Positions 2,763 through 39,745 of a stretch of DNA of 49,288 nt are shown piece after piece. The notes beneath the pieces were generated by a model that worked only from the letters and a program-made list of their open reading frames with translations, was not told the origin of the DNA and searched no databases. The position numbers and the translations under genes are program-made. Each line of letters starts with the position of its first letter. Position 1 is the first letter of the stretch. Origin of the DNA: Arcobacter sp. CECT 8986. GTDB lineage: Bacteria; Campylobacterota; Campylobacteria; Campylobacterales; Arcobacteraceae. The DNA lies in contig NZ_PDKG01000012.1 of the NCBI RefSeq assembly GCF_004116725.1, forward strand, positions 1-49,288. The letters are read 5' to 3'.

Positions 2763-4940
2763 ATGTCAAAAGAGAAAATAAATTTAAATATCTCGGGAAT
2801 GACTTGTGTAAATTGCTCTAATGGTATAGAAAACTTTTTGAAAAGAAAAGAGGGTGTATTAGATACAAAAGTTAGTTTTGCTTCAAATGAAGGAGAATTT
2901 ACTATTGATACAGACCTTTTTTCAAAAGATAACTTGATTGCAAATATTGAAAAATTAGGTTACAAAGTAGAAGAAGATTTTTCAAAACTTGAAGAAGAAC
3001 AGATAAAAAGTTTTGAGAAATTAAAAAAACTATTTTTTACTTCACTTATTTTTACTCTAGGAATTTTTGCTCTAGTTTTTCTACAATTATTTGATGATAA
3101 AACAACAAAAACAGTTATATTTGTATTTGCCTCAATTGTTCAGTTTTATAGTGGTGCAAGATTTTATAATCTTGCTTATAAATCATTAAGCAATAGAAAC
3201 TATGATATGAATGTATTAGTAGCTCTTGGAACTAGTGCTGCTTATTTTTATTCTACATTTGTACTGTTTCTTCCTAGTTTATTTCCTGAGCATTTAAGAT
3301 TTGTCTATTTTGATGGTGCAGCAGTAATTATAACTTTTGTTTTACTTGGTAGATATTTAGAAGCACGTTCTAAACAAAAAGCAAGTGATTTTTTAAAAAA
3401 ATTAATGAATTTAGCCCCACAAGAAGCAAATCTAGTTTTAGAAAATAGTGAAGTAAAAACTGTTTTAGCAAATAGCTTAGAAATTGGAAATGTAATATTA
3501 ATTAAATCAGGTGAAAAAATACCAGCAGATGGAAAAATCATAGAGGGTAAGGCAGATATAGATACTTCAATGATTACAGGAGAATCAATGCCTGTATTTA
3601 AACAAGTAGATGATGAAGTTTTATCGGGAACTTTAAATACAAATGGAGTAATTAAAGTGGAAGTTTTAAAACTTTCAAATGATACAACTTTATCAAAAAT
3701 AATTACGCTTTTAAAATCTGCACAAAGTAAGCAAATTCCAATTAGTAGATTTGCAGATAAAATTGCAAATATATTTGTTCCTACGGTTATTATTATCTCT
3801 ATTCTTACATTTATAGTTTGGGCATTGCTTGGAGAGTTACAAAATGCAATATTAACTTCAATTAGTGTATTAATTATATCTTGTCCTTGTGCTTTGGGAC
3901 TTGCAACTCCAATTGCAATTGTAAGTTCAGTTAGTAGAGGTGCGAAAGAGGGACTTCTAATCAAAAATCCAGAAATATTAGAGATAATAAAAGATATAAA
4001 ATATGCAGTTTTTGATAAAACTGGAACACTAACTAAGGGTGAAATCAGTGTAGAAAATACTGATATTAACTCTAAATATTTTGCTACTATTTTATCAATT
4101 GAGAGTCTTAGCGAACATCCTATTTCAAAAGCAATAGTAAATTATATAAAAGAGAAAAAAGATTTTGAAAATATCAGTGTGGATAGTGTTGATATAATTG
4201 CTGGAAAAGGTATCAAAGCAAAAATAAAAGATGATATTTTCTTATTAGGAAATGAAAAACTTCTACTTGAAAATGATGTAAATATATTAGCTAAACATAA
4301 ACAATTTTTTGAAGAGCAATTAGAAAAATCAAATGGTGCAATACTAGTATCAATAAACAGTGAAACAATAGGTTCTTTCTCTTTAGTTGATAAACTAAAA
4401 GATGATGCAATAAGTATGATAAATGATATAAAAAAAGAAGGAATTAAACCTATACTATTAACTGGAGATAATAGTATAACTGCTAAAAAAATTGCACAAC
4501 AGTTAAATATAGAAAAAGTATATAGTGAAGTGATTCCTACTCAAAAATATGAAGTAATATCACAACTTCAAAAAGAAGGGAAAGTGATGTTTGTAGGAGA
4601 TGGAATAAATGATGCTCCTTCTATTAAAAAAGCTGATATTGGAATTACATTAAATTCTGGTTCTGATATAACTAAAGATGCCGGAGATATAATTTTAGTA
4701 AATAATGAATTGTCTTCAATTTCAAAAAGTATTCATTTGTCAAAAGAGAGTATTAAGATTATAAAACAAAATCTATTTTGGGCTTTTGCATATAATGCAG
4801 TTGGAATTCCTTTGGCTGCTGGAGTTTTTTATTCTTTATTAGGTCATATGTTAACACCGATGTATGCAGGAATAGCTATGAGTTTTAGTTCTGTAACGGT
4901 AGTATTAAACTCATTAAGATTAAAAATCAAAAAAATATAA
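2763..4940 (+). CDS. copA: P1B-type Cu(I)-exporting ATPase, CopA-like
   Basis: A 725-residue inner-membrane ATPase that would pump Cu(I) out of the cytoplasm. Visible in order: an N-terminal HMA domain with GMTCVNCS (C15, C18); membrane helices from about residue 85; actuator motif TGES near 270; the intramembrane CPC at 374-376 in CPCALGLATP; phosphorylation motif DKTGTLT with Asp418; the HP dipeptide in SEHPIS near 453; GDGIND near 615; and the final helix pair with MSFSSVTVVLNSLRL. CPC followed by ALGLATP together with the last-helix MSxSS fits the Cu(I) subtype, not Zn/Cd (which usually has CPCALVISTP). AAGGAG precedes the ATG, one base after the regulator stop. Confidence 0.93.
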   Translation: MSKEKINLNISGMTCVNCSNGIENFLKRKEGVLDTKVSFASNEGEFTIDTDLFSKDNLIANIEKLGYKVEEDFSKLEEEQIKSFEKLKKLFFTSLIFTLGIFALVFLQLFDDKTTKTVIFVFASIVQFYSGARFYNLAYKSLSNRNYDMNVLVALGTSAAYFYSTFVLFLPSLFPEHLRFVYFDGAAVIITFVLLGRYLEARSKQKASDFLKKLMNLAPQEANLVLENSEVKTVLANSLEIGNVILIKSGEKIPADGKIIEGKADIDTSMITGESMPVFKQVDDEVLSGTLNTNGVIKVEVLKLSNDTTLSKIITLLKSAQSKQIPISRFADKIANIFVPTVIIISILTFIVWALLGELQNAILTSISVLIISCPCALGLATPIAIVSSVSRGAKEGLLIKNPEILEIIKDIKYAVFDKTGTLTKGEISVENTDINSKYFATILSIESLSEHPISKAIVNYIKEKKDFENISVDSVDIIAGKGIKAKIKDDIFLLGNEKLLLENDVNILAKHKQFFEEQLEKSNGAILVSINSETIGSFSLVDKLKDDAISMINDIKKEGIKPILLTGDNSITAKKIAQQLNIEKVYSEVIPTQKYEVISQLQKEGKVMFVGDGINDAPSIKKADIGITLNSGSDITKDAGDIILVNNELSSISKSIHLSKESIKIIKQNLFWAFAYNAVGIPLAAGVFYSLLGHMLTPMYAGIAMSFSSVTVVLNSLRLKIKKI

Positions 4941-21345: not shown

Positions 21346-22728
21346 TTATTTAAGTTTATCTGCTCTTGGGTAGATAAACACAGCTTTTCTAATAACACTT
21401 ACTTTTGGGTCATCTTCTGCAAATGCTCTAAGTGTTAATGTGATTGGCGTATCTTTTGTATCATTTTTTACTAATTGTTTTGTTGTACTTAAAATAACAA
21501 CTTTTTTTCTCATTTTATGAGGTGCTAATGAAAACGGTCTAAATCTTTCTATTTTTATATCTTTGTTATCTACAACCTCTAAATTATATTTATGTTTTTT
21601 AGAATCAGTATTTTGGAAAAGTAATAGATAGTTATTTGATACTTTATTGTTATCTTCTACTTTATAAAGTTCAGTTGTTTTATTTACATTTAACAACATG
21701 TACTCTTTTTCTCCACCCATAACAAATAGTAAACCTAATACTACTAATAATGCAACTGCGTACATAATTGTAGATTTTCTTATAAGTTTTGTCTCTTTGT
21801 TATATTTGATTTCATTAGTACTTGACCATTGAACAAGTGATGGTTTACCTAATTTACCCATTACTTTTGTACATGCATCAACACACTCTAAACAGTTAAT
21901 ACATTCAAGTTGTAAACCTTTTCTAATATCAATGTGTGTAGGACACACAGTAACACATGATTCACATGTAGTACATTCATTTTCAACATTTGGTAAATCT
22001 TTTTGTTTAAAGATAATTTTTTCTTTATTATCATTATAGATGTTACCACCTCTATTTGTAGAGTAAATTGCTTGAAGTGTATTATTGTCATAAAGAACAG
22101 ATTGAACCCTTGAATAAGGACAAACATATGCACAGAAATCTTCTTTTAAGAAAATTACATCATAAATTATAAACCCAGCAATTGCTAAAACAGTACCAAT
22201 TAAAAACATATGGTCAGTTGGATTTTGTAAATATGCAAAGAAATCTTCAGGTGGAACAAAATACCACATAAAATCTGATGCAATTACAAGAGCAATTAAT
22301 GCCCAAAGAATTATTGCAATAACTCTTTTTGATGCATTTTCTGGTTTTTTCCAATCAGGTTCTTTTTGTTTATTTTTAATTCTTCTTAATTTTAGAAGTT
22401 TTGTTTCTATTAAATCTCTATAAATAACCCTAAAAATTGTTTGAGGACATGTCCATCCACACCAAGCTCTACCACCAATAGAAGTAACGGCAAAAATACC
22501 TAAAAATAATAACATTAATAAAAATGGCATAAGATAAAGCTCTTGCATATCAAAGGCAACACCCATTAAATGTAGTTGTTTTTTGTCAAATGATAATAAA
22601 AATATATGATTATCATTGATTCTAATGAAAGGTAAAGATAATCCTACAATAGTAGCAATAATATATGCGTAGTATCTTTTTATTCTATAAGGAGATTTTT
22701 TAAGATACTCACCCTTTTCAGTACTCAT
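21346..22728 (-). CDS. ccoG: Cytochrome c oxidase accessory protein CcoG (RdxA/FixG)
   Basis: A 460-residue membrane ferredoxin-like protein needed to mature cbb3-type oxidases, shown in other bacteria to be a Cu(II)-reducing protein in the CcoA-SenC copper path. The N-terminal half has membrane segments around residues 18-38, 65-85, 137-160 and 172-192, with GRAWCGWTCPQ and DFCAYVCPYSR cysteine motifs. Then come two 4Fe-4S motifs, CTTCESCVTVCP and CINCLECVDAC, one further helix near 320-340, and a C-terminal periplasmic Ig-like FixG domain. AAAGGAAAAAAT precedes the ATG. No cco structural genes lie in the window. Confidence 0.93.
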   Translation of the reverse strand: MSTEKGEYLKKSPYRIKRYYAYIIATIVGLSLPFIRINDNHIFLLSFDKKQLHLMGVAFDMQELYLMPFLLMLLFLGIFAVTSIGGRAWCGWTCPQTIFRVIYRDLIETKLLKLRRIKNKQKEPDWKKPENASKRVIAIILWALIALVIASDFMWYFVPPEDFFAYLQNPTDHMFLIGTVLAIAGFIIYDVIFLKEDFCAYVCPYSRVQSVLYDNNTLQAIYSTNRGGNIYNDNKEKIIFKQKDLPNVENECTTCESCVTVCPTHIDIRKGLQLECINCLECVDACTKVMGKLGKPSLVQWSSTNEIKYNKETKLIRKSTIMYAVALLVVLGLLFVMGGEKEYMLLNVNKTTELYKVEDNNKVSNNYLLLFQNTDSKKHKYNLEVVDNKDIKIERFRPFSLAPHKMRKKVVILSTTKQLVKNDTKDTPITLTLRAFAEDDPKVSVIRKAVFIYPRADKLK

Positions 22729-25390: not shown

Positions 25391-25731
25391 TATAGTACCT
25401 TTAATTTTTTGAAAAAATTATAGCACTTTTATGGAATTTTGGATTTTTAAATTAGGTTATTTTTTATACTAACATATAAAAAATAGGCATTATGAAGAGT
25501 TATTTAAGAAGCAAAGAAAATAAAATTTCTTTGCTTTTTTATTATTACTATTTTTTTATGTCATATGAAAAATAAATTGAAAATAAAAGAAAATTCCCCT
25601 TACTTCCTAAAGTTCATACTTTCTTTCACCCAGCTTATCAATGACTTTTTAAAACGATATCAAATAAATACTGATAACAAGCTAATAAATAGTGATAATA
25701 CGAATAAGGTATAATATCGAGTATTTTAAAT
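25391..25731. other. Intergenic stretch with a plus-strand terminator-like hairpin
   Basis: A 341-base gap between two minus-strand genes. It should hold the promoter of the dCache chemoreceptor and the end of the HD-GYP operon. The one clear structure is a plus-strand hairpin at 25509-25540. A further imperfect dyad (AGCTTATCA near 25638 and TGATAACAAGCT near 25674) is seen. No convincing gene is present. Confidence 0.45.
25509..25540 (+). terminator. Orphan intrinsic terminator-like hairpin
   Basis: AAGCAAAGAAA at 25509-25519 pairs perfectly with TTTCTTTGCTT at 25526-25536, followed by more T on the plus strand. No protein gene on the plus strand ends here, so it may be the 3' end of a small RNA or a block on antisense transcription. 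Confidence 0.55.
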
Positions 25732-26243
25732 TTATCTTTTTTTTCTTTTTTTAGGTAGTCTATATTTAAAAGTTTTTAATTGCTTTACTAGCTTAGATGA
25801 TAATCTATACATATTATTAATAATTTCTTTCTTTTCTTCTTCAAGTAGCCATTCACTTAGTAATATTAATACTAATAGCTCTGGAATCCATTTATAGCCA
25901 TTGCTAAGGTTATTACCAAGGGTTTTAGTAATTACATCAAAATATGTAATTAATGCATCTTCTTGCTTGAGTAAAAGTTTATATCTATTGTCATATTGTG
26001 CTTTTAGAAGAATTTCATTTAATTGATGTGTAGAAATAATAGTTTTTTCTAAATTAGAAAGAAGCTTTTTGATAATTAGATTTATTTCAATAGTATCTTC
26101 TTTCACACTTAAATAAGCATAAGTATTTTTTTCGTCAATTTCTAAAAAAAAAATTCTAACGTTGTTCTTATAAATAATAATAAAGCTTCAGTTTTCTGTT
26201 CTCTCAAAAGTTTAGGTTTTATTCTTTTTTCTAACTTTTGCAT
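25732..26243 (-). CDS. Hypothetical basic helical protein, apparent frameshift at a run of ten T
   Basis: I do not recognise this family. The downstream piece (25732-26106, GTG start, 124 residues) has no own ribosome binding site of note. Just two bases after the HD-GYP gene stop an ATG at 26243 opens a frame of 33 codons (MQKLEKRIKPKLLREQ...) that stops at a TAG directly after ten T (26153-26144 on the minus strand). A one-base gain in that run, or a -1 slip, joins both frames without any stop, giving one helical protein of about 170 residues ending in a very basic tail (RLPKKRKKR). So the gene is either frameshifted, slippage-dependent, phase-variable, or miscalled in a homopolymer. It would be the last gene of the sensory operon. 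Confidence 0.6.
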
Positions 26244-26245
26244 AG

Positions 26246-28393
26246 TTAATCTTTGAAACACTTTTTTAATTCTAAAAACTCATCTAAGTTATCAAAGAAT
26301 AGATTTATTAAATTTGGATCAAAATGTTTTCCTTTTTCTTCCTTTAATAACTTTAAAATCTTTTCAAGAGGCCATGCTTTTTTATAAACTCTATCATGTG
26401 CTAACGCATCAAAAACATCACATATTGCAGTAATTCTTCCAAAAACATGAATCTCTTCACCCTTTAAACCTCTTGGATACCCAGTACCATCCCATTTTTC
26501 ATGATGCTCATTAGCAATAATTGCAGCTGCTTTAAATATTTTTCTATCAGAGGTATTTAAAAGGTTGTAACCAATATTTGCATGTTCTTTCATATGCTCA
26601 TACTCTTCAGCCGTAAATTTCCCTGGTTTATTTAAAATTGAATCTGGAATACCAATTTTTCCAATATCATGCATTGGTGATGCTAAGTTTAATAGTTGAG
26701 CTGTTTCTTCATCTAGTCCAGCTTTTAGTGCTAAAAATTTAGAATATTCAGCAACTCTTTTTACATGATTTCCTGTTTCTTTTGATCTAGTTTCAGCGAT
26801 CTCTCCCATCTTATAAATAATTTCTTTTTGAGTATTTTCCAACTCTTTATGTAATTCTTCAACTTTTGTAATATCATTTCTAACAGCCATATACTCAATT
26901 GTTTCATCATTTCTATCTTTAATAGGCACTATAGTTGTTATAAAATGTAACTCTTTACCATTTTTATGAAAACCTTTTAGCTTACCTTTCCAAAGTCCAT
27001 TAATTTTAATTTCATCAACTATTCTTAGCATATTAATAACATCATTATCTTTATGAATTATTTTTGAGTAATGTAAATTTACTAGTTCATCTTTTGTATA
27101 TCCAGTCATTTTAGAAAAATTATCGTTAACATAGATAATTTTAAAATCTTTAGATACTCTTATTATGATACTACTTTTGTCCATTGCCTTTTCATAGTAT
27201 TCTGATAGTCTAAGGACTTCATCAAATTCTTCACTTTTAATTAAATATTTCTCTCTTAATTGAACTTTTTTCAACTCTTTTTTTGTAATGTCTCTTCTTA
27301 TCCCAATGAATTCAATTATATTCCCATTTTTATCTAAAATTGGATTAATTACAGTATCTACATAATAGGTAGAACCTTTTTTTGTTTTATTTTTTAATTT
27401 TCCTACCCAAGGCTTTTTATTTTCTTTTATTGTTTTCCATAAATCTTTAAAAAACTCTTTTCCCATATCTGGATGTCTAACTATAGAGTGAGGCTTTCCA
27501 ACCAATTCTTCTTTTTTATAGCCTGATATTTCTTCAAATTTTTTATTTACATAAGTAATATTTCCATTTATATCTGCTTTTGAAACAATATTTGTTAAGT
27601 CAACTGTCTCTTTATATTGATTTAATAAGTTAACATTTCTATTTATTTCAATATCTTTTCTAATACTATTAACTTGAATCTCAACCTTTAAAAGAACTTC
27701 TTCAAGTAGAAATGGTTTTTTAATAAAATCACTTGCCCCTTGTTTTAAGGACTCACGGTATGTTTTTGCATCATAGTTACCTGATAACACTACAACACTA
27801 AGATTTTTATTTATATTCTTTTTTATATTTTTAAGAAGCTTTAGTCCGTGAATATCTGGAAGTTCTAAGTCTAGTATTACTAAGTCAATATTCTCTTTTT
27901 TTAGAATTTGATATGCCTCTATACCTGTCATAGAGGAATAAAGCTTATAACCTCTTGGAGTTAAAATATCTTGTAGCTGTTTTTGTATAACTGTTGAATC
28001 ATCAATAATTAGAATTGAATTTTCTTTATTTTTCTCAATATCATTTATAAAATTAACAATTTCATTAATATTGTCTTCAATTGATTCTTTCTTGTTTAAA
28101 AAATCCAAGATACCTTTTACAAATAGCTTACTTCTTATCTCTTCATCTTCAGAAGAAGTTAAAACAATTATTTTGGAGTCTTTATAACTATTAATTTTAT
28201 CAACAAGTTCTTCACCTTGAGCATCTTCAAGATGTAAATCTAATATGATATAATCATAAGCTTCTTTATCTAAATTTTTTTTTGCATCTTGAAGAGAAAA
28301 TGCACTAGTACATTTAAATCTTTTTTCTTCTAATAAAGATTTTATTGCACTATTTAAACTTTTTGAATCTTCTACTACTAAAATTTTTACCAT
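26246..28393 (-). CDS. Double-receiver, PAS-PAS, HD-GYP cyclic-di-GMP phosphodiesterase
   Basis: A 715-residue multidomain regulator. Residues 1-118 are a receiver (LVVEDSKS; phospho-acceptor Asp52 in LDLHLED), about 124-245 a second receiver (LIIDDSTV; LVILDLELPDIHG), about 265-375 and 400-510 are PAS domains (SIVRHPDMGKEFFKDLWKTI is Aer-like), and from about 525 an HD-GYP domain: METGNHVKRV-like ETGNHVKRVAEY, HDIGKIGIPD and HHEKWDGTGYPRGLKGEEI. The HD and GYP residues are all present, so c-di-GMP hydrolysis is expected. It lies 15 bases after a chemoreceptor gene, linking chemotaxis-type sensing with second-messenger output. Confidence 0.9.
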   Translation of the reverse strand: MVKILVVEDSKSLNSAIKSLLEEKRFKCTSAFSLQDAKKNLDKEAYDYIILDLHLEDAQGEELVDKINSYKDSKIIVLTSSEDEEIRSKLFVKGILDFLNKKESIEDNINEIVNFINDIEKNKENSILIIDDSTVIQKQLQDILTPRGYKLYSSMTGIEAYQILKKENIDLVILDLELPDIHGLKLLKNIKKNINKNLSVVVLSGNYDAKTYRESLKQGASDFIKKPFLLEEVLLKVEIQVNSIRKDIEINRNVNLLNQYKETVDLTNIVSKADINGNITYVNKKFEEISGYKKEELVGKPHSIVRHPDMGKEFFKDLWKTIKENKKPWVGKLKNKTKKGSTYYVDTVINPILDKNGNIIEFIGIRRDITKKELKKVQLREKYLIKSEEFDEVLRLSEYYEKAMDKSSIIIRVSKDFKIIYVNDNFSKMTGYTKDELVNLHYSKIIHKDNDVINMLRIVDEIKINGLWKGKLKGFHKNGKELHFITTIVPIKDRNDETIEYMAVRNDITKVEELHKELENTQKEIIYKMGEIAETRSKETGNHVKRVAEYSKFLALKAGLDEETAQLLNLASPMHDIGKIGIPDSILNKPGKFTAEEYEHMKEHANIGYNLLNTSDRKIFKAAAIIANEHHEKWDGTGYPRGLKGEEIHVFGRITAICDVFDALAHDRVYKKAWPLEKILKLLKEEKGKHFDPNLINLFFDNLDEFLELKKCFKD

Positions 28394-28408
28394 TTATTTA
28401 CCTAATAA

Positions 28409-30499
28409 TTATTTTGTTTGAACTTCATTCTTACCTATAAATTCTTTATTATCTGTATTAGCAACTACAAGCTTAGCTATCTTGTCTGTTGTTCCTGCTA
28501 TATCATGAGTTTGAGAAGCTACCATTGCATTTTCTTGTGTTTGTCTATCTAACTGGGTAATTGCATCATTAATTTGTTCAATACCTAATAGTTGTTCTTT
28601 AGAAGCAGAATCTACATCTGAAATTAATGAAGTAGTTTGATTAATGTTTTCATTTAATTGATTATAGCCCTCAATCATATTTTGAGAAATTTTCTTTCCA
28701 TCATCAGCTTTTAATGTTGCAGACTCTACTAATGACTTAATTTCATTTGCTGCTTCTGCACTTCTACTTGCTAAATTTCTTACTTCAGCTGCTACTACGG
28801 CAAAGCCTTTCCCTGCTTCGCCTGCAGTTGCAGCTTCTACTGCTGCATTTAGTGATAAAATATTTGTTTGAAAAGCTATTTGATCTATTACAGTAATTGC
28901 TTCATTAATAGCAAGAACTTGTTCATTTATTTCATCCATTGAACTAGCAGTTCTATTTGCTAAGTTTGTTCCTTGCTCTGCGGATTTTTTAACATCATTA
29001 GATAGGCTTGTCATTTTTGAAATACTTTCACTATTACTTCTTATAGTACTTGTTATTTCTTCTAATGCAGCAGCAGTTTCTTCTAAAGAGCTTGCAGCTT
29101 CAGTAGAACTAGCATTCAGCTTATCAACGTTTTTTAATAGGCTATGAGAACTTTTTTCTAGAGTTAATCCATTTGATTTATTTTCAATTAGCATTTCAGT
29201 AATTGAGTTCCCTAAATTATTAACACCATTCGCTAGATTTAGTAAATGCTCTTTTAAATTTTTATTATCAATTTTATTTAAATAGTTATACTGTGAATAC
29301 TGTTCTAATACATTTAAGATTTTATCAATATTATTTTCTAGATTTTCAGCCATTTTGTTTAAAACAGTTTTTAATTCCATTAATGCAGGGTTAGATACCT
29401 CCATTTCTAGTCGTTGGCATAAATCTCCACTTTCAAATTCACTTAATACAGTAATTGTTTCATCAATAAGCTTTCTATCTTCTTCAATATTTTTTTGTGT
29501 TTTTATAATATTTTCATTTACAACTTTTGCCATTGAAGAGAATTCATCATTACCTTTATCTTTAAGATAAACTACATCTTCTGTTTTCCTATTTAAATAA
29601 TTAAAAAAGGATAAAAGACCGCTTTTAAAAGAATTCATTGATTTTATAATATTTGTTAATACATAATATGTAATTAATATTACTAGTAGAATATTTATTA
29701 CTATAACCAATGTTGCAATAAAACTAAATAATTTATTTTGACTTGTAATTTCATCAGTAATGTTTTTTTCAAGCTTTAATAGTGTATCTTCTTTTGATTG
29801 AATTGTTGTTCTAAGTTCATGTATTAAACCATCTTTAGATGTTAGACCTTTTTGTTTTTCAGCTTCAACTAATGCTAAGAAGTTTTCTTTATATGTTTGT
29901 AGATTTTTTTTGTAAATAAAGAAACTAGGGTTATTTAATAATTTATTTACACTATTTTCAAATTTCTCTTTGTACTTTAAATCTCTTCTGATAATAAAAT
30001 CTTTTCCATGTTTTCTTAATTCATATACATATGCTAATAATTCAAAGTTTTTTGAATCTCTCACATCTTTTTGAACTTTATGTACAGCAGATCTTAATTT
30101 ACCTCTTAATCCACTATTTTTATCTAAACCTATTTTCTTCTCAATGTTTACAATGTTATGAAATTTTTTGTTGTACTCTTCAATAATTAAAAGTAAATCT
30201 ACTGCACCTTTATCATTTATGCCAAGATCTTTCAAAATCTCTATTAGATGTTTTGTTTCTTGTTTTAGTTCAACAAAAGTTTCATTAAATTTTTTTTCAT
30301 ATTTTAGATCTAGCCTTTGAAAAAAATCTTTTTCATGCTTACGTAAAGTTAAGGTTGCTATTTCTATTTCTTCTACATGACTAAATGCGCTGTTTAGTTT
30401 TTCAACTTTTTTTTCTTTAAACTGTTGTATGCCAATAATCGTTCCAAAACAAATCATGGTTGTTACTGCCATTGCAATTAATTTATTCTTAATAGTCAT
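28409..30499 (-). CDS. Methyl-accepting chemotaxis protein with helical periplasmic sensor
   Basis: A 696-residue chemoreceptor. A helix near residues 7-24 and one near 262-283 bound a ~235-residue all-helical periplasmic part with two similar repeats ([20 protein letters not shown] and [20 protein letters not shown]), the mark of an HBM (helical bimodular) sensor. The signalling tip [20 protein letters not shown] matches that of the dCache receptor. The C-terminal end [13 protein letters not shown] resembles the section before the WESF tail of the other receptor, but it lacks the pentapeptide. It is probably co-transcribed with the HD-GYP gene 15 bases downstream. Confidence 0.88.
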
Positions 30500-30590
30500 A
30501 ATAATCCTTATATAAGTAAATGTAATACTTTATTAAATTATTATAATAAAAAAAAATGATTTTTTTATGAGTAATTAGTCGTTTAAATAT

Positions 30591-32171
30591 TTATTTGGCA
30601 ATTAAAAGAGTTATTTTAAAAGATAATCCATTATTTATCTTAAAATATTGAATCTTTCCATCAAGGTTTTTATTAATTATAGTTTTAGCAATAAATAGTC
30701 CCATCCCTGTACCTTCTGGCTTTGTAGTAAAATATGGGTCAAATATTTTTAAAAATGTTTCATGACTTTTAATTCCACCAGCATTATCACTAATAAGTAT
30801 TTCTGCTTTATTGCTAATTTTTTTTATATCTATTTTAATTTGTGGTTTTTTTATATTATTTAGAATCAAAGCATCTTTAGCATTATTTAAAATATTTAAA
30901 ATTGCTTGCTGAAGTTGACCTTCAAAGTTAAATAAATATATCTCACTGGAACAATTAATCTTTACTAGAATTCTATGAAGATCAAACTCTGGAATAAGTA
31001 AACTTATCATTTGATAAATAGATTTTTCTAAATTAAACCTTTTTTTATTCTCATCATGCTTGAAAAAGTTTCTAAAGTCATCAATAGTTTGAGACATATA
31101 TTTTAATTGGATATTTACTTTATCACTCCATTTTTCTATATATTCATTATCTAAATTTCCTTCAAACTCTAATTTAGAGTTTAACGTAGAAACAAGTAAA
31201 GAAGTTGTATTTAATGGCTGCCTCCAATTATGAGCAATTGAATTAAGAACTTCACCCATCGATGCTAATTTTGATTGATGAAGTAACATTTCTTCTTTTT
31301 CCCTTCTTTCTGTTACTTCATATTCGATTTTTTCTTCCAATTCCAATTGAGTACGTTTAAGTTCTGTTATAATTGAAAATGTACATACTAAACCATTTTC
31401 AAATTTTACTAATTTATTAGATATCCACTCTTTTATTCCATGATCATTAAAATAATACTCTATTGTTTTTTTTTCACCTGTTTCAACTACATCCTTAAAA
31501 ATATCAAATAAGCTATTGTTCTCTAAATCTGATAAAGGTTTAAAGCAACCTGGAAATAAAGACTTAAGTGTTTTATTCTTTATTTGCTTTTCTTCATATT
31601 TTAATGTTTCACATGCAGCTTCGTTGAGTAATGTAAATTTAAAATCAATTATTTCATAGCTATCTTTTGAAAGAATAGACTCAAAAGCCATTATTGAGTC
31701 CAATGAACTATCAAGAATAGCTTTTAAAAAGAAAGATGTTTTAGATATCTCTTCTTCAGGACTTTTATTTAAAGTTATATCACCATGAATACCTAGCCAC
31801 CTAATTGGCTTTCCTAGCTCATCTTTTATAACAATTGCTTTTAGTCTAACCCATACTATATGGCCTTTTTTATGTATAAATCTGACTACTATGTTATATG
31901 TAAATCTCGGATCTGCAATATGTTTTCTAGCATTTAGCCTTGCCATTTCTAAATCATCAGGAAATACTAACTTTTCCCATTCTGAATAAGTTTGTTTTTC
32001 ATCTTCATATTTGTATCCTAGGTACTCCCAGAAACTTGGACTAGTCCAACCTTCCTCAGGGTTTTCTAAGTTCCAATACCAGACCCCGTAAATTGAATTT
32101 TCTTCTACAAATTTTTTTGCATTAAAGTCTTTAGTGATTAATTCATTATACTCTTTTTCTAAATAATGCAT
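30591..32171 (-). CDS. PAS-domain sensor histidine kinase
   Basis: A 526-residue cytoplasmic kinase without membrane helices. A PAS_3-type domain is at about 20-135 (WTSPSFWEYLGYKYEDEKQ; FIHKKGHIVWVRLKAIV; IRWLGIHGDIT), a second weaker PAS at about 145-265, and a kinase core with phospho-acceptor His314 in SIAHNWRQPLN, N box NILNNAKDAL, and G boxes DNAGGI and GTGMGLFIAK. The WRQPLN H box is common in Campylobacterota and Desulfobacterota kinases. Its start directly follows the stop of the response regulator gene, its likely partner. Confidence 0.9.
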   Translation of the reverse strand: MHYLEKEYNELITKDFNAKKFVEENSIYGVWYWNLENPEEGWTSPSFWEYLGYKYEDEKQTYSEWEKLVFPDDLEMARLNARKHIADPRFTYNIVVRFIHKKGHIVWVRLKAIVIKDELGKPIRWLGIHGDITLNKSPEEEISKTSFFLKAILDSSLDSIMAFESILSKDSYEIIDFKFTLLNEAACETLKYEEKQIKNKTLKSLFPGCFKPLSDLENNSLFDIFKDVVETGEKKTIEYYFNDHGIKEWISNKLVKFENGLVCTFSIITELKRTQLELEEKIEYEVTERREKEEMLLHQSKLASMGEVLNSIAHNWRQPLNTTSLLVSTLNSKLEFEGNLDNEYIEKWSDKVNIQLKYMSQTIDDFRNFFKHDENKKRFNLEKSIYQMISLLIPEFDLHRILVKINCSSEIYLFNFEGQLQQAILNILNNAKDALILNNIKKPQIKIDIKKISNKAEILISDNAGGIKSHETFLKIFDPYFTTKPEGTGMGLFIAKTIINKNLDGKIQYFKINNGLSFKITLLIAK

Positions 32172-32867
32172 TTACTTAACTTCTAGTTTATAACCTAATT
32201 TTGAAACATTTTTAATAAGATCATATTTTATTTTTTTTCTTACATTTTTAATTAATGTGCGCAAACTACTCATTGTCATATTTTTATCATCAATAGTCCA
32301 AACAATATCTTCTATTTTTTCATAACTTAGAGGTTTGTTTATATTCTTTACAAAAAGACTTAATAATCTTTTTTCTTTTAATGTCAAAGGAATACTCTCC
32401 CCATCAATTATTAAGTCATATGTATTTAAATCAAACCTTATATTATCATTTAAAACTATGATGTTTTTATTTTTATTAAAAAATTGTAATGCTATTTTTT
32501 TTAATATATCTTTGATATCTTTAAATGATATAGGTTTTTCAAGAAATCCATGAATATTAGAATTAGATGCTTTTAATAATGTTCTTTTATCAGTATATGC
32601 AGAAGTGATTATAATAGGAATATTAAAATCTTTTTTTCGAATATATTCAATTACATCAAATCCATTTAATTTTGGTAAATCGATGTCACAAAAAACTGTA
32701 TGAATATCATTATCTTCATAAATAGAGACTGCAGATAAACCATCTTTCGCTGCATAGACCTTTGCAAAGATAGGAGTCATGATTTCACACATTAGATTTA
32801 GTGCATCAATCTGGTCTTCTATAATTAAAATTGATTTTTCTTTAAAAAGGTCACTTATATCATTCAT
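32172..32867 (-). CDS. OmpR-type response regulator
   Basis: A 231-residue regulator: receiver domain at 10-125 (ILIIEDQIDA; phospho-acceptor Asp61 in FCDIDLPKLNGFDV; conserved Lys in FLEKPISF) and a winged-helix DNA-binding domain in the C-terminal part (LTLKEKRLLSLFV; SSLRTLIKNVRKKI). It pairs with the adjacent PAS kinase. A dyad ACTGC(14)GCAGT at 32928-32951 upstream could be its own site, but that is a guess. The first gene of the sensory operon, divergent from the transposon remnant. Confidence 0.88.
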   Translation of the reverse strand: MNDISDLFKEKSILIIEDQIDALNLMCEIMTPIFAKVYAAKDGLSAVSIYEDNDIHTVFCDIDLPKLNGFDVIEYIRKKDFNIPIIITSAYTDKRTLLKASNSNIHGFLEKPISFKDIKDILKKIALQFFNKNKNIIVLNDNIRFDLNTYDLIIDGESIPLTLKEKRLLSLFVKNINKPLSYEKIEDIVWTIDDKNMTMSSLRTLIKNVRKKIKYDLIKNVSKLGYKLEVK

Positions 32868-33302
32868 AAATGTAGTGTATAATCTTTTCTCTAACTTTTT
32901 CTTTAATTTTATTAAAAATATTGATTTACTGCTAGAAATTATTTAGGCAGTATAATTTAATTAAGTATAGAGATATTTAATAGAAAACTTTATGTAATCT
33001 ATTAAAAACTTTGATTATAAATATATTTTATATATTTACATTTTTTTAAATTACAAAACACTTAATATACTAAAATCATTTATTTAGTTAAATGCAATTA
33101 CTTCTTTTATCTATTATATTTATAAATATTTATTCTACATTTAACTTTTATTAAATACAAACTACTAAGGTAATTGACAAAAATTTCAATTCTTTTTTAT
33201 ATGAAAATGTAAATTTGTGTTTTTTATTAAAAATATTAATTTCTAAAGCTAAAACATACAAACTTTTTTGTTTAATCCTATTTTTATACTATAGGAGAAC
33301 GT
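32868..33302. other. Intergenic region holding the proposed left end of the transposon
   Basis: A 435-base AT-rich gap between the response regulator (minus strand) and the recombinase fragment (plus strand). It contains the dyad ACTGC/GCAGT (32928-32951), then TTTAT at 32989-32993 followed by TGTAATC, and TAAAAACTTTGATTAT at about 33003-33018, which resembles the repeat unit at the right end of the element. A TATACT at 33285-33290 and AGGAG at 33292-33296 serve the recombinase gene. No coding frame is seen. Confidence 0.45.
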
Positions 33303-34019
33303 ATGACAGTTAGTTCATTAATAGAAGAGTTTATATTTCATTGTAAATTTGAAAGAAATCTTACTGCTAAAACAATAAAAGCTTATGAAAATGACTTTAA
33401 ACAATTTAAAGAGTTTAAAGATGTTTCTAATTTAAATGTTATAGAAGTTGATAAAGTTTTATTAAAAGAGTACATTAGACATTTATATACTTTATGTTTA
33501 AAACCAAAATCCATAAAAAGAAAAGTCGTGGTATTAAAAGGTTTATTTAACTATTTAGAGTTTGAAGAAATTATTGAGATAAATCCTTTTAGAAAAATGA
33601 GAATATCTATAAAGCAAGAGAAGACTTTCCCCAAAACAATAGAAATGAAAAATATTAGAAAGTTATTAAAATATGTGTATGAAATAAAACATAATATTAA
33701 AGATAAAAATAGCTTTAAATATAAATCAGTAGTTAGAGATATAGCAGTGTTAGAACTACTCTTCTCAACTGGTCTTAGAGTGTCGGAAGTGAGTAATTTA
33801 AAGTCTAGTTCAATCAATATAGTTTCTGGATATATTAAAGTAATGGGTAAAGGGAATAAAGAAAGAACTATACATGTGTGTGAACAAGAGTCTAAAAGCA
33901 TTTTAAAAGAATATTTCTCTCTATTTAAAGAAGAGATTCAGAATAAAGAATATTTTTTTATTAATAGGTTAAAAAAAAGATTATTAAAGAGTCTATTGAA
34001 GAAAAAACTCAATCTTTAA
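33303..34019 (+). pseudogene. Truncated tyrosine recombinase (XerC/D-like integrase)
   Basis: The 238-residue frame has the SAM-like N-terminal core-binding domain (LTAKTIKAYENDFKQF) and the first half of the catalytic domain with the first Arg in FSTGLRVSEVSNL and the Lys hairpin VMGKGNKERTIHV. It ends at EYFFINRLKKRLLKSLLKKK. The second half, with the HxxR box, His/Trp and the nucleophilic Tyr, is missing; intact relatives are about 60-80 residues longer. The last 15 codons overlap an open frame in another register that leads into tniB, so the end is probably a junction left by a deletion. AGGAG precedes the ATG. Catalysis is not expected. Confidence 0.75.
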
Positions 34020-34072
34020 ATAAGGATATAGATGATGACAATGATGGTTATGAAATTTATCCAATTGGCTAG
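33968..34072 (+). pseudogene. Orphan C-terminal tail, probably of the deleted transposase TniA/TnsB
   Basis: In the frame one base behind the recombinase, an open stretch runs from just after two stops (at 33962 and 33965) to a TAG at 34070-34072, with the residues KKIIKESIEEKTQSLN, an acidic DIDDDNDG and YEIYPIG. It has no start codon and stops eight bases before tniB, the place where tniA ends in Tn5053/Tn7-like operons. I infer that it is what remains of tniA after a deletion joined it to the recombinase gene at the A-rich sequence near 33971. The homology itself is not proven from so short a piece. Confidence 0.45.
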
Positions 34073-34080
34073 GCAATGTA

Positions 34081-34920
34081 ATGAATGATAGAAATTTGAT
34101 AAAAGATGCTTTAGAGTGCTTAAATAAAAGTGATGAAGAAAGAATAGTATTCTGTAAGAAAGATCATTGGATAGGTTATAAAGCAGCAGTAAAATTAATA
34201 AAAATATTAGAAGATCCTCCTCAAATGAGACATGAAGGATTACTTATCTATGGTGATTTAAATAATGGTAAAACAGCAATATTAAAAAAGATGTATTCTT
34301 TGCATAAAGTTAAATTAGAACCTGTTCAAAGAGAAGATGTAATAACTTATGAAATACCTATTATATATTTCCAAGCACCTACAATACCTGATGAGAGTAG
34401 ACTTTATAGTCTTATCTTAGATGAACTTTGTGTACCATATAAACATAATGATAAAATCCAAACAAAAGCTAAGTTAGCAGAGCATTACTTGCATAAATTA
34501 GGAACAAAAATGATTTTAATAGATGAAATACATAGTGCTTTACAAAGAACTTTTATTGATGACCTAAAACAATTAAGTAATAGGCTCTCTCTTACTATAA
34601 TACTAGCAGGTACCAGGGAAGCTCATTCAGCTTTATCAATAGGTAGTGAAACAGGTTCAAGATTTCCATCACTTGAACTTCCTAGATGGAATAATGATAA
34701 AAAGTTTAGATCTTTTGTTGCAACTTATGAAAGATGTTTACCTTTAAAAGAGGCTTCAAATCTAGCAGATAATCCAGATATAATAAATGCTTTGTTTCAT
34801 CAGTCTGAAGGACTTATAGGTATGACTGTAAATCTGCTCAAAAAAGCTGCTGTAAAGGCTATTAAAACTAAACGTGAATATATAATAGTTGAAGATATAG
34901 GTTATTTACCAAAGTTGTAA
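34081..34920 (+). CDS. tniB: TniB/TnsC-like AAA+ transposition ATPase
   Basis: A 279-residue AAA+ ATPase of the TniB family, the regulator that links target choice to the transposase in Tn5053/Tn7-like elements. Walker A is YGDLNNGKTAIL near residue 60, Walker B is MILIDEIHSAL near 146, sensor 1 is in IILAGTREAH near 178, and a C-terminal helical lid follows with GLIGMTVNLLKKAA. The N-terminal WIGYKAAVKLIKILEDPP region is typical of TniB. The frame is intact. It is followed by tniQ after one base. Without its transposase it has no obvious partner here unless one is supplied from elsewhere in the genome. Confidence 0.88.
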   Translation: MNDRNLIKDALECLNKSDEERIVFCKKDHWIGYKAAVKLIKILEDPPQMRHEGLLIYGDLNNGKTAILKKMYSLHKVKLEPVQREDVITYEIPIIYFQAPTIPDESRLYSLILDELCVPYKHNDKIQTKAKLAEHYLHKLGTKMILIDEIHSALQRTFIDDLKQLSNRLSLTIILAGTREAHSALSIGSETGSRFPSLELPRWNNDKKFRSFVATYERCLPLKEASNLADNPDIINALFHQSEGLIGMTVNLLKKAAVKAIKTKREYIIVEDIGYLPKL

Positions 34921-34921
34921 T

Positions 34922-36097
34922 ATGAAAAAAATAAAAAGAAATAAAGATTGGGTTCAAGACTATTTCTTTTTAATTGTACCTAGACCATTAAAAGATGAAC
35001 TTCTTAGTTCTTGGTTGATGCGTATGTCAATAGAGTATAAAAGAAATCTATCTGAATTTATTTCTTTATTTATTTGGCATGAGGGCAATGCTATATCAAG
35101 AACAGATATAGATTTTCTATATAATGAAAAATTATTTAATCATTTGACTCAAAAAAGTCATCTTTTAAAGAAAGAAATATTTAGTCTTTCTTTGCATAGT
35201 GAAGAAGGTCATTTATTTTTATGTGATGAAAATAGTTTATATCCTCCTTTACAAATTAGAAAATTAAAAGATAAAAGAACTCATAATGGTTTAATGTATT
35301 GTCCTAAGTGTTTAGCTGAAGATAAAATATCATATTTTAGAAAAAAGTGGAGATATAACTTTTATAATGCTTGCCCAAAACATAAAGTATTTTTAACAGA
35401 TAAGTGCTGGGGATGTTATAATAAAATTAGTTTATCTAAAATAAAACATGAAAAAGAACTTTGTTTTTGCTATAACTGTGAAAGAGATTTAAGAGAAACT
35501 GTTAGTTTACCTATTGAATCAAATTATGAATATGGATTGAAAGCTATAGAATGGTTTGAAAGAGGATTAACTAGAGGATACTTTGTGATAAATAAGAAAA
35601 AAGTAAAATCAGTATTTGTTTTTGAAAGTATTACTTATCTTAGGTTTTTACTTGATAGAAAAGAAAAATTAAATTTTAAAAAATTTCCTTTAATTGAAGA
35701 GTATAAAAATATTTGTAAAAAACTTGATAGATATAACTCTAAAAAAACTTTATTTATAAAAAAAGAGTTTATTTTAACTTCTATGGTGTATTATATTTTT
35801 CAAAATTATCCTAAAATTTTAGTTGATTTTTCAAAGGACAATCATTTGACACATAGAGATTTTATTCATGGTTTTAAAGATATCTCCTTCTGGTATAAAA
35901 GTATGATAGATGAACTTATTCCTATGAAAAATAAAATTGGGAGAGAAATAAGTGAAAGTGAAGTCCTGGGGGCTACTAAATATCTTAAAAATCAAGGTAA
36001 AGTTGTCAATCAAATTAGTGTTGCAGAAATAGTTGGATGCCCTTTTTCAATTCATAAAGGTTTTGTAAAAATTTATAAGAAACTACACAATAAATAA
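34922..36097 (+). CDS. tniQ: TniQ-family target-selection protein
   Basis: A 391-residue protein of the TniQ/TnsD family. The N-terminal VPRPLKDELLSSWLMRMSIE is the family signature. Zinc ligands are seen as YCPKCLAED near residue 123, then WRYNFYNACPKHK with Cys and His, DKCWGC, and FCYNCERDL. The C-terminal part (from about 290) ends with NQISVAEIVGCPFSIHKGF, a helix-turn-helix-like stretch that may read the target DNA. TnsD proteins direct insertion to the end of one conserved gene, and this element lies at the 3' end of mnmG, so that this TniQ chose mnmG is a reasonable but unproven inference. The frame is intact. Confidence 0.85.
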   Translation: MKKIKRNKDWVQDYFFLIVPRPLKDELLSSWLMRMSIEYKRNLSEFISLFIWHEGNAISRTDIDFLYNEKLFNHLTQKSHLLKKEIFSLSLHSEEGHLFLCDENSLYPPLQIRKLKDKRTHNGLMYCPKCLAEDKISYFRKKWRYNFYNACPKHKVFLTDKCWGCYNKISLSKIKHEKELCFCYNCERDLRETVSLPIESNYEYGLKAIEWFERGLTRGYFVINKKKVKSVFVFESITYLRFLLDRKEKLNFKKFPLIEEYKNICKKLDRYNSKKTLFIKKEFILTSMVYYIFQNYPKILVDFSKDNHLTHRDFIHGFKDISFWYKSMIDELIPMKNKIGREISESEVLGATKYLKNQGKVVNQISVAEIVGCPFSIHKGFVKIYKKLHNK

Positions 36098-36101
36098 CAT
36101 T

Positions 36102-37805
36102 TTATAGATTAATTTTTCCCAATAATCCAGCATACCATTTAGCTAATTGAATTTCATCCAAATTTTCATTTCTTTCATAATTTTTTTTAGTAAATTTTGG
36201 GTTGGTCTTTTTATAATTCATTACAATATCTGGGATAGAGTTATTATCTTTAAAATATAAATTTATAAAAAAGTTAAAAGTATTATTTGTAATAACTAAA
36301 TCAGAAATTATCACCTAAGAAGAGGCAGATGAAGAGGAATAGTTTTCTAATTCTAATAATCCTACATTAAAATTTTCATATCTAAATGTTGAAGTTAAAT
36401 ATTGTCTAGTCCTTTTGTTCATTTTACATTTAGGATTTATCTTTTTCTATCCATCTTTTTCGATTAAAAATTCAGGTAAGTTTCTTATTTCACTTAATGT
36501 AAAATTTTCAATAATAGACTGTTGTTTTAAAAATTCCATATATTGTCTAAATACAATAAAATTATCTATTTCATTTAAAGGTCTTGTTTCTTCCTTGTCA
36601 AATTTACTTGAGATTATAACTCGTCTAGTAGCCTTGTCTCCTTTTAAAGAAGATTCAGTAAGACTTTGATCTAGCTTATCCTTATTTTCTTGCTCTTGGT
36701 ATATTTTTAGTAGATCTTTAATAATATCTTTTGTTTGTGTTTCATGTTTTATTTCAATATTTAGTAAACTTTCACAGCTCTTTTTTTTATCTTTTCTGTG
36801 TTGTGTACTAGTGTGTTTTTTATTTGCATCTTTTATTTTTAAGATCTCTGTCGTTTCTTCTGGAATTTCTCTATCAACTTTTGATAAGTTTTCTAAATCC
36901 TCAAGGTCTGTTATTATTTTATTTTGTTCAACTATCTTTGTGAATTTATCAAATCCTATATCAGAATTATCATTAGTGATTTCATGTATAAAATAGTAAT
37001 CTTCCTTTGTTTCTTTATTAGTAACAAGACTTACTCTTGTATCTATTTTAAACTTCTCTTTTACTGGAAAATTTATTTTTAAATGAATTCCCTCAATCTC
37101 TTCATCTAAGTCATGTCCTCTCATATACTTTAAGTAGTGATGGATGTATTTACTTATATTTTCAAATTCATTATGTGCTTTTTGTTGACATGCATATCTG
37201 TGAATGAATGCTGCATCTTCATCTGTTCTTGGAGTTGGTAAAACAACTTTTGCATTACTTCTATTATCATCACACATAACATATAAACTTTCAATATTAC
37301 AATCCAAAACAGCTTCTCTCATCTCAGAGAATCTAAAATAATAATAAATTCCTATAGCAAAGTGAGGAATGATGATTTTTATATCATCTTGTTCAATCAA
37401 ATAACAGTTAATGTATTTTGCAATATCTAAGTATTTATAACTCCACCCAAGTAAAGTTCCAATAGTTTTTTCATCTAATAGTTCATTTAGTTTTTTTTCA
37501 ATTGAGTTATTTATTAATGATGAATTAATAGTAAAAACTTTTTCTAAGATTTCTTTACTTGGATAATATTCAGTTTTTTCACCATTTTTAAAAGATTTAT
37601 AAAGAGGGAAATGAGTAAATAAAAGTTCTGGAGATACTTGATGAGTAAAAACTTCATTTTGAGTCATATTTTTTATTACAACTTCATAATGACTGTTTCC
37701 AAACTTATCTTCATCAAGTATTAGTTTTAAAGGAAATAAAAATTTAAAAGTATCATGTGGATTATTTGACATAAAGTCTGGAATGATACTTTTACCTTTT
37801 GACAT
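36102..37805 (-). pseudogene. tnsE: TnsE-like transposition protein broken by two in-frame TAG codons
   Basis: One reading frame runs from ATG 37805 to TAA at 36102-36104, stopped only by TAG at 36447-36449 and 36315-36317. Read through, it is 567 codons, close to Tn7 TnsE (538 residues). From memory of TnsE the layout agrees: IPHFAIGIYYYF against the IPQLELARSLFL helix; an acidic linker around residues 300-340; and a C-terminal domain whose parts (RQYLTSTFRYENFNVGLLEL; FNFFINLYFKDN; IQLAKWYAGLLG) fit the TnsE DNA-binding domain across both stops. TAG at the second site could come from a TGG Trp codon by one change. It converges on tniQ. TnsE sends Tn7 to replicating plasmids. The N-terminal 452 residues may still be made. 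Confidence 0.65.
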
Positions 37806-37821
37806 ATTAAAATATACTCCC

Positions 37822-37889
37822 ATTATCAAAGTTTATTTTACATATTATCACTTTTTATTTCCTATTATCATTTTTTATTGCTTTTGACA
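37822..37889 (-). repeat. Three TnsB-site-like repeats at the transposon right end
   Basis: On the plus strand, ATTATCA starts at 37822, 37844 and 37864, each followed by T-rich sequence of the form xxTTTATT (spacings 22 and 20 bases). The outermost unit leads to TTTTGACA ending at 37889, so the minus strand reads TGTC from the edge. Tn7-like ends carry repeats of about 20-22 bp bound by the transposase and end in TGT/ACA. The repeats overlap both the start of the tnsE-like gene and the last codons of mnmG. Confidence 0.6.
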
Positions 37890-39745
37890 TTTATATTTAT
37901 ATACATATGTAAAATATCAATAGCAGCTGGAGTTACACCAGAAATTTGACTTGCATTGAATAGTGTAGGTGGATTAAATTTTTCAAGTTTTTCAATTACT
38001 TCATTTGATAATCCAGAAATTTTTGAATAGTCAAAGTTTTCAGGTATTTTCATTTTTAACATTTTTTGCATTTTTTGAATCTGTTTTTGTTGTTTTACAA
38101 TGTATCTATAATATTTAGCTTCTACAATTATTTGCTCTTTTAAATATGGTTCTACATCTTTTAAACTTGGAACTAATTCATCAAATTTAGCTGCATCAAT
38201 GCTACTTCTACCAACAATATCAACTAATAGTGCTCTATCTTTGATTTTGTCTTCGCCTAATCTTTCTAATAGCTCAAGATTTTCTTTTTTTGAAGTGAAC
38301 CACTCATTTGCCATAAATTCGATTGCATCATTGATAACTTTTCTTTTATGTTCAACTTGATTCATAGTTTTATCATCAATTAAACCTATTTCATGTCCAT
38401 ATTGGCTAAGTCTTAAGTCTGCACTCTCTTCTCTTAAAAGAAGTCTATATTCTGCACGGCTTGTGAACATTCTATATGGTTCATTTGTTCCTTTAGTTAC
38501 TAAATCATCAATAAGTACACCAATATAAGCTTCATCTCTTCTTAGAACTAAAGGCTCTTTATTATCTACTGATAATGCTGCATTTATTCCTGCCATTAAT
38601 CCTTGAGCTGCTGCTTCTTCATAACCAGTAGTTGCATTTATTTGTCCAGCTAAGTAAAGGTTATTTATTTTTTTAGTTTCTAATGTATGTTTTAATTCAG
38701 TAGGGTCAATATAGTCATACTCAATTGCATATCCATATCTTACTACTTTTGCATTTTCTAAACCTTTGATTGAGTGAATCATCTCTTTTTGAACATCAAT
38801 TGGTAAAGAAGTACTCAATCCATTAATATAGTATTCAGTACACATAGCTGTTTGTGGTTCTAAGAATAATTGGTGTCTTTCTCTTTCACTAAATCTATTT
38901 ACTTTATCTTCAATACTTGGACAATATCTTGGTCCACTTCCTTGAATTTGACCTGTAAATAAAGGTGCTCTATAGAAGTTTGAAGTAATTGTATCATGTG
39001 TACTTGTGTTTGTATATGTGATATAACATGGATACTGTTTTGGATTAAATGTTGATTTATCTGTTCTAAAAGAGAAAGGAGTTGGTATCTCATCTCCTCC
39101 ATGTTTTTCCATTACAGAAAAATCAATAGAGTTTGCATCAATTCTTGAAGGTGTTCCTGTTTTTAATCTTCCTACTTTTAATCCTAACTCTTTTAATTGA
39201 GTAGATAGAGTAGTTGATGGTAATTCCCAAGCTCTTCCTGCTTCATATTTGTTTTCTCCAATATGAATAAGACCTTTCATAAATGTACCAGTTGTAAGAA
39301 TTACTTTTTTTGCTTTAAACTCTTCTGTAAGTTTAGTCTTAACTCCTGCAACATCTCCATTTTCATCAATAATTAATCCAGTAACTTCATCTTGATATAC
39401 TTCTAAATTAGGTGTATTGTGACAAACTTTTCTCATATAGTGTCTATATTCATCCATATCAATTTGTGCACGACTTCCTTGTACTGCAGCACCTTTTGAG
39501 GCATTTAAAATTCTAAATTGAATCCCAGCAGAGTCAGTACAAAGTCCCATTTCTCCACCTAATGCATCTAATTCTCTAACTAGGTGTCCTTTTGCAAGTC
39601 CTCCAACAGCAGGATTACATGATGCAGCACCAATTTGTTCAACTAGCATAGTAATAAGAAGAGTTTTTTTACCCATTCTTGCACTAGCTAAAGAGGCTTC
39701 AATTCCTGAATGTCCGCCTCCAACGACGATAATGTCATAGTTCAT
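37868..39745 (-). CDS. mnmG: tRNA uridine-5-carboxymethylaminomethyl(34) synthesis enzyme MnmG
   Basis: A 625-residue FAD protein that with MnmE modifies wobble U34 of several tRNAs. The FAD motif is [12 protein letters not shown] at the N terminus; [20 protein letters not shown] and [11 protein letters not shown] are family typical; the C-terminal helical domain ends [16 protein letters not shown], as in relatives. The last six codons (after ININ, i.e. VKSNKK and stop) lie in the transposon end sequence TGTCAAAAGCAATAAAAAATGA, so the native C terminus has been replaced by an element-borne one. This region is a flexible tail, so function is likely kept. Confidence 0.95.

Follow-up and report, generated by a model that had tools for sequence, protein, structure and literature searches.

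A decayed Tn7-like transposon with its right end at the 3' end of mnmG in an Arcobacter genome, and a family of related elements with mnmG as a probable attachment site

Genes and transposon ends at the mnmG locus

We analyzed a 49,288-nucleotide stretch of the genome of Arcobacter sp. CECT 8986 (contig NZ_PDKG01000012.1; here, the window). Next to the 3' end of its mnmG gene lie a broken tnsE-like gene, tniQ, tnsC, a tnsB remnant, and cargo genes, which together with two transposon-like ends make up an element of 12,331 bp (positions 25559 to 37889; Table 1).

Table 1. Features of the mnmG locus and of the adjoining element (window coordinates)
Feature	Position	Strand	Basis or remark
mnmG (gidA), 625 aa	37868..39745	-	Pfam GIDA and SAM_GIDA_C; final 6 codons and stop inside element; tail compared with relatives
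mnmG 3' end supplied by element: third base of Asn codon (37889), VKSNKK (37871-37888), TGA stop (37868-37870)	37868..37889	-	Sequence; native tail INIKK plus stop in G002 and past the left end in the window
Target flank TTTAT (ATAAA on mnmG strand)	37890..37894	.	Duplication off by one A at left end
Right end (RE): TGTC tip and three TnsB-site-like TGATAAT (= ATTATCA) repeats	37815..37889	-	Inner limit approximate; conserved in right ends of relatives
tnsE-like gene, broken by two in-frame TAG codons; longest open stretch 36447-37829	36105..37805	-	Profile A1 match, E 1.2e-256
tniQ, 391 aa, candidate target selector	34922..36097	+	Pfam TniQ, 7.6e-21; tree
tnsC/tniB, 279 aa	34081..34920	+	Pfam TniB, 3.8e-43
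tnsB/tniA 3' remnant after deletion	33972..34072	+	97% identity to G062 tnsB 3' end over junction stretch
Xer-like tyrosine recombinase, truncated (cargo), fused to tnsB remnant at deletion junction	33303..34019	+	96% identity to intact 312-aa gene in G062 cargo
Response regulator (cargo)	32172..32867	-	Pfam
PAS histidine kinase (cargo)	30591..32171	-	Pfam
Methyl-accepting chemotaxis protein (cargo)	28409..30499	-	Pfam
Response regulator-PAS-HD protein (cargo)	26246..28393	-	Pfam
124-aa ORF (cargo), without Pfam match	25732..26106	-	Pfam scan
Left end (LE) TGTCATATG..., TnsB-like sites at 25578 (degenerate), 25672, and 25693	25559..25708	+	Homologous to duplication-bounded LE of G062 and to LE in G003; inner limit approximate
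Displaced native mnmG end (TAAAAAAATAG), reading ...INIKK plus stop once joined to RE flank	25548..25558	-	Same tail in G002
ccoG/fixG-like gene, outside element	21346..22728	-	In L065, L066, and L067 (all element-free), ~0.4 kb or less downstream of mnmG

The initial annotation had described three repeats and a TGTC tip inside mnmG, and both were found exactly as described. ATTATCA begins at 37822, 37844, and 37864 and is followed by TTTTGACA up to 37889, where the terminal TGTC starts within mnmG, at the third base of the Asn codon that precedes VKSNKK. The TGA stop of mnmG doubles as the TGA of the outermost TnsB-like site. Three copies of ATTATCA on one strand within 50 bp or less occurred only once in the window and in none of 200 first-order Markov simulations. 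The lone motif is frequent in the window (19 and 20 copies on its two strands), and a looser 13-base form was found at chance level (81 versus 73 expected); thus, the weight is carried by the repeat cluster and its conservation, not by the motif.

By its gene content, the window element is a decayed copy in which most of tnsB and any tnsA have been lost and tnsE carries nonsense codons, while tnsC and tniQ are kept. No TnsA match was found among the window ORFs scanned with Pfam. Relative to the element of G062, a deletion joined the recombinase gene to the 3' end of tnsB across a short shared run. Because the transposase is gone, the window copy is presumably no longer mobile unaided. A candidate left end near 22584, inside the ccoG-like gene, was dropped after comparison with G062 and G003.

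The cargo between 26246 and 32867 is devoted to signal transduction (a chemotaxis receptor, a histidine kinase, and response regulators), unlike the defense genes often described as cargo of such elements. The Xer-like recombinase gene is 96% identical in DNA to positions 3688 to 4626 of L051 (G062), which suggests a recent exchange of element parts between the two.

The codons for VKSNKK and the stop had been proposed to be element DNA, to be checked against relatives lacking the element. The congener G002, with no TnsC match and no TnsE-like match, bears this out: its MnmG ends in HMYINIKK, without the repeats. The same ending is obtained in the window when the minus-strand TAAAAAAATAG past the left end is joined to the right-end flank by a 4-base overlap. 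The duplication in the window is imperfect, with ATAAA at the right end versus TAAAA at the left end, one A apart in an A-run. G003 carries the same repeats as the window but also holds an element remnant with a left end. In G002, ~6 kb of other genes separate mnmG from ccoG.

Two further arrangements were seen near mnmG. In L060 (G003), a 437-bp mini-remnant with both window-type ends adjoins a right end of a second type (TGTAAGACA...). By eye, an AACTAGA...TCTAGTT-like inverted repeat lies downstream of mnmG in L059, L062, L063, and L066 and also at the start of tnsE in L057 and L058; it is thus common to element-free genomes and the first codons of type-2 tnsE-like genes.

Related elements at mnmG

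We searched 120 relatives for mnmG and TnsC; 117 genomes bore mnmG, 22 of which were not fetched. All nine tnsC homologues with at least 43% identity (the window included) sit ~3 to 13 kb downstream of mnmG, as does none of the 11 weaker homologues. A profile of the 565-aa gene adjoining mnmG matched in 35 of 299 relatives and in 39 of 397 genomes of the class, a set that overlaps the 299. Of 30 matches fetched from the 299 relatives, 24 are beside mnmG. Among named records (Aliarcobacter, Arcobacter, and Sulfurimonas metagenome-assembled genomes), mnmG was directly upstream in seven of eight loci, the eighth being a short contig; at least four of these loci are probably the G011, G141, G147, and G288 records and are not independent. 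As judged by sequence, the TnsA-TnsB-TnsC-TniQ-TnsE elements of these relatives occupy the same place at mnmG, and the window copy is one of the family.

Right ends were compared at 26 sites, the window among them. Left out of this set were G070 (a tnsE-like fragment at mnmG whose right end was not recognized), G209 (a stretch without mnmG), the plasmid-like copy G288b, and the candidate scars G015 and G043, the last three being described below. Counted from the conserved TPAA codons of mnmG, the tip lies at +33 nucleotides in 15 right ends, at +32 in 8, and at +35, +37, and +80 in one each, so that 23 of the 26 fall at +32 or +33. The tip finder had given +26 for G046, G001, G005, G123, and G141 and deeper positions for G288a and G047; these were reset by hand to +33 (G047 to +35). 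A profile scan placed the seven reset tips at the same starts, although five of them (all except G001 and G047) were training sequences with hand-set starts. Upstream of the insertion, at a distance like that of the TnsD site in glmS, sits a near-invariant ISG-TP-A block of mnmG.

Most right ends (24 of 26) lie within the mnmG ORF, to which they give 5 to 14 codons (whole or in part) and a stop, and 23 of these 24 begin with a TG(T/C) tip. Those of G062 and G003 lie 3' of the mnmG stop; rebuilding of the C terminus is therefore usual, not obligatory. The two main offsets open two reading frames, with tails such as CQKQ, CKKQ, and CHKH at +33 and VKSNKK, VTSNKK, and VKNTKK at +32. In all 26 right ends, a frame-0 stop is found at codon 5, 6, or 14; its position varies more in the 14 left ends described below. 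We considered coding selection on the right-end reading frames; in frame 2, the stop is provided by the TGA of the TnsB-like site and is present in left ends too, so such selection is unsupported.

A left end was accepted when it had a CA tip, a TnsB-like site 12 to 31 nucleotides inward, and an exact copy of the 5 bp in front of the right end. Such an exact duplication was found at 14 of the 26 sites (the window is not among the 14), compared with 24 of 636 in a control in which each locus was searched with the duplications of other genomes. For 2 of the 14 (G062 and G251), the duplication is TTTTT, which is weak in such DNA, and a second candidate left end is present in G044 and in G134. By this test, the exact duplication is missing at 12 of the 26 sites, some of which are decayed, at a contig end, or one base off (the window, G051, and G143). 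No qualifying left end was found in G005, G001, G124, or G221 over the 37 to 47 kb searched.

For 10 of the 14 bounded elements, the native tail can still be read in frame past the left end. The changes from native to element tail are MRTKK to MRCKKQ (G011), MFSKKQ to MFVKNTKK (G139), LFNKKA to LFCHKH (G134), VKSVKHTN to VKCQKQEKLIIGNKK (G046), LQNKTVKNATA to LQCKIQK (G044), VKQKEA to VKCQKQ (G141), IKQKEA to INVRSNKN (G147), and IFNKK to IFCKKK (G251); the native tail is also readable past the left end in G283 and G104. G051 has four of the five duplicated bases, and its displaced tail, MFLKQK, is the tail of G031, of the same genus. The exact 5-bp duplications and readable displaced tails of these relatives bear out the proposal that a Tn7-like element inserts into the 3' end of mnmG and rebuilds the C terminus of its product. 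Tandem arrays at mnmG, with an older-looking right end after a newer left end, were seen in G087, G132, G123, G003, and G001; in the first three, a newer element seems to have landed before an older one.

Gene content, target selection, and fate of the elements

Matches to TnsA, TnsB, TnsC, TniQ, and the TnsE-like protein were found in 13 of the 14 bounded elements; the remaining one, G104, is a remnant of 3.4 kb that retains tnsA and tnsE in part. The 13 elements range from 13.5 to 26.8 kb and combine this common set with differing cargo. TnsA matched in all 14 (broken into two frames in G011, incomplete in G104; the Tn7_TnsA-like_N match in G046 was 7e-11), and TniQ and TnsC/TniB matched in 13 of 14 each. 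TnsB/TniA has rve and Mu C-terminal domains in the relatives, of which the window retains the 3' remnant only. The ends are Tn7-like: they carry TnsB-type sites in arrays and have TGT...ACA tips.

The tnsE-like gene is set apart from the core genes and read in the opposite direction. Pfam TnsE_C matched 5 of 23 members of this protein family (best, 1.4e-5). In a scan of genomes, it scored above the cutoff in three of eight, in ORFs that the family profile had also matched; of 14 control genomes, 3 gave a match below the cutoff and none gave one above. It matched neither the four mnmG-type TnsE-like proteins scanned nor the genomes G046 and G005. We therefore infer the TnsE assignment of the mnmG-type protein from linked homology through divergent members of the family. 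AlphaFold models were poor (mean pLDDT of 41 for the TnsE-like protein and 46 for TniQ), and when the TnsE-like family was run as a profile against the PDB, it gave three weak matches (E of 0.02 to 0.1), two to single-strand DNA-binding proteins and one to a myosin-tail interacting protein, which were set aside. Divergent TnsE-like elements were also seen right after a truncated dprA (L102 and L104) and at comM-like genes (L109, with L105 nearby); dprA and comM are linked to natural transformation.

The gene content and a TniQ tree point to TniQ as the probable selector of mnmG. Of the 29 rows in the tree, 19 labeled as mnmG were split from 10 other-site elements by a 100/100 branch, although several of the 10 are long branches and the 19 include the plasmid-like G288b. 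The tniQ of G221 runs in the opposite direction and is a candidate component only of the mnmG element there. We consider it very probable that the sequence at the end of the window mnmG belongs to a decayed Tn7-like transposon, as its right end, and that the family of this transposon has the mnmG 3' end as its attachment site; targeting there is probably by TniQ.

It is unlikely that mnmG is chosen by a selector other than TniQ, namely, the TnsE-like protein or the Xer-like recombinase, in the manner of TnsF at comM in Tn6022. A tnsE-like match does lie beside the mnmG end in all 14 bounded elements (a fragment only in G104), and Tn6022 employs the recombinase-like TnsF together with TniQ (PMC10293859). 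On the other hand, the role known for TnsE is that of a plasmid or replication selector (PMC10293859 and PMC11406308), and elements at dprA and comM-like genes encode proteins related to the TnsE-like one. The TniQ proteins at mnmG, at 355 to 412 aa, are near the 400 aa given for direct selectors in dual loci (PMC10293859), a length that may be read in favor of another selector. The Xer-like recombinase was ruled out in this role, since a tyrosine recombinase is present in only 2 of the 14 bounded elements.

We regard as highly improbable the reading of the mnmG end in the window as native 3' sequence with a terminator, near a Tn7-like remnant by chance. The motif is common in this AT-rich DNA, and some element-free relatives have K- and N-rich tails of their own (e.g., NVKNKK), but native tails displaced past left ends with exact duplications already refute this reading. 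The recurrence of the same right-end type at an almost constant offset and the different, repeat-free tail of G002 also speak against it. Insertion directed by an RNA guide against mnmG, as in a CRISPR-associated element, is extremely improbable on the gene content compared: guides against conserved genes are described for some CASTs (PMC11406308), but the 13 bounded elements share the TnsA, TnsB, TnsC, TniQ, and TnsE-like set and differ in cargo.

Under TniQ targeting, TniQ would recognize the conserved upstream codons of mnmG, as TnsD does in glmS, and TnsC and TnsAB would then insert the element at a fixed distance downstream, right end first, just inside mnmG. As the relatives show, five base pairs are duplicated, the native last codons are displaced to the far side of the left end, and the element's own tip becomes a new short tail and stop. 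MnmG would be expected to stay functional, with the change confined to the variable tail after its conserved C-terminal domain. The TnsE-like protein would probably serve a second pathway, into mobile plasmids. A candidate for such TnsE-type targeting is G288b (G288:C49; L130, L202, and L203), a copy of the mnmG lineage away from mnmG with an exact CTATG duplication on a 28-kb contig. The contig encodes plasmid-like genes (Lin1244_N and a RepB_primase-like match of E 0.005, below the cutoff), which fits this role. The TnsE-like protein had no match in a plasmid collection; the tnsC matches there were all below 60% identity (37% for the best listed) and are uninformative.

A decaying element may retain its right end because that end now terminates an enzyme gene. 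With a right-end profile, 28 of 107 mnmG ends scored above the best of 2,140 simulated controls, 20 of the 28 being training sequences. Of the 107, 90 had been fetched irrespective of a tnsE-like gene, and 11 of these were above the limit; the other 17 had been fetched for a tnsE-like or tnsC match. Right ends are present in G015 and G043, both outside the training set, where no TnsC or TnsE-like match was found and no tns gene was seen by eye among the nearby ORFs. These look like candidate scars, in which right ends have been left as MnmG tails. G019 and G057 resemble scars by eye and score under the control limit. We tentatively suggest, as a possibility somewhat short of even, that the lineage lives by grafting its tip onto a housekeeping enzyme. 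In this view, the right end would be kept readable in the frames that it meets, the graft would make the element hard to lose, and decay would leave permanent transposon-coded C termini on MnmG, as in the candidate scars.

The mnmG site among known systems

The initial annotation had called the mnmG 3' end a new attachment site for Tn7-like elements. This claim is supported as far as the literature searched, outside which lay the supplementary tables of the large Tn7 surveys. Neither mnmG (gidA) as an attachment site of Tn7-like elements nor such elements in Arcobacter were found in that literature. A word search of the main texts, as distinct from the supplementary files, of PMC10293859 and PMC8649781 found neither mnmG nor gidA. 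One paper in the literature searched combines mnmG with a genomic island and an integration site, and it concerns Lactobacillus. The sites named for Tn7-like elements in the covered sections of PMC11406308, including part of its Table 1, are glmS, yhiN, comM, parE, and tRNA.

With mnmG, a conserved landing site for Tn7-like elements would be added for the Campylobacterota (Arcobacter- and Sulfurimonas-type bacteria). Its geometry is unusual, in that insertion is intragenic and the transposon end becomes the new protein end, which would explain part of the variation in MnmG tails. The TniQ proteins of the family are open to direct tests of mnmG recognition, and the candidate scars suggest a route by which mobile DNA may be permanently incorporated into a housekeeping gene.

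Integrase-type elements restore the 3' ends of genes by means of site-specific recombinases and a shared att sequence. The mnmG family likewise uses element DNA to finish a host gene at its 3' end, but it is a DDE-type Tn7-like transposon and brings unrelated codons. For Tn7, the TnsD site comprises the final 36 bp of the glmS ORF; insertion takes place ~25 bp beyond, ~20 bp past the glmS stop, and leaves the ORF intact, and the 5-bp duplication spans attTn7 positions -2 to +2 (PMC2918618). The mnmG family resembles Tn7 in its TnsA, TnsB, and TnsC proteins, TniQ-family selector, TnsE, fixed orientation, and set distance from conserved 3' coding sequence (PMC2918618 and PMC11406308). Unlike Tn7, which inserts after the glmS stop, it targets mnmG and inserts within the coding sequence, replacing the last codons. 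With Tn6022, it shares a TniQ and a remote TnsE that lies off the core genes, on the opposite strand and near one end (PMC10293859). Unlike Tn6022, which inactivates comM and uses TnsF, it leaves an intact mnmG ORF and has no recombinase-like selector common to the family (PMC10293859 and PMC11406308). A likeness to the new protein end is found in engineered CAST right-end linkers, in which a transposon right end is read as the C-terminal codons of a host gene; those linkers had stops removed and a tag added (PMC10201428), whereas the mnmG ends, as a natural counterpart, bring a short tail and a stop.
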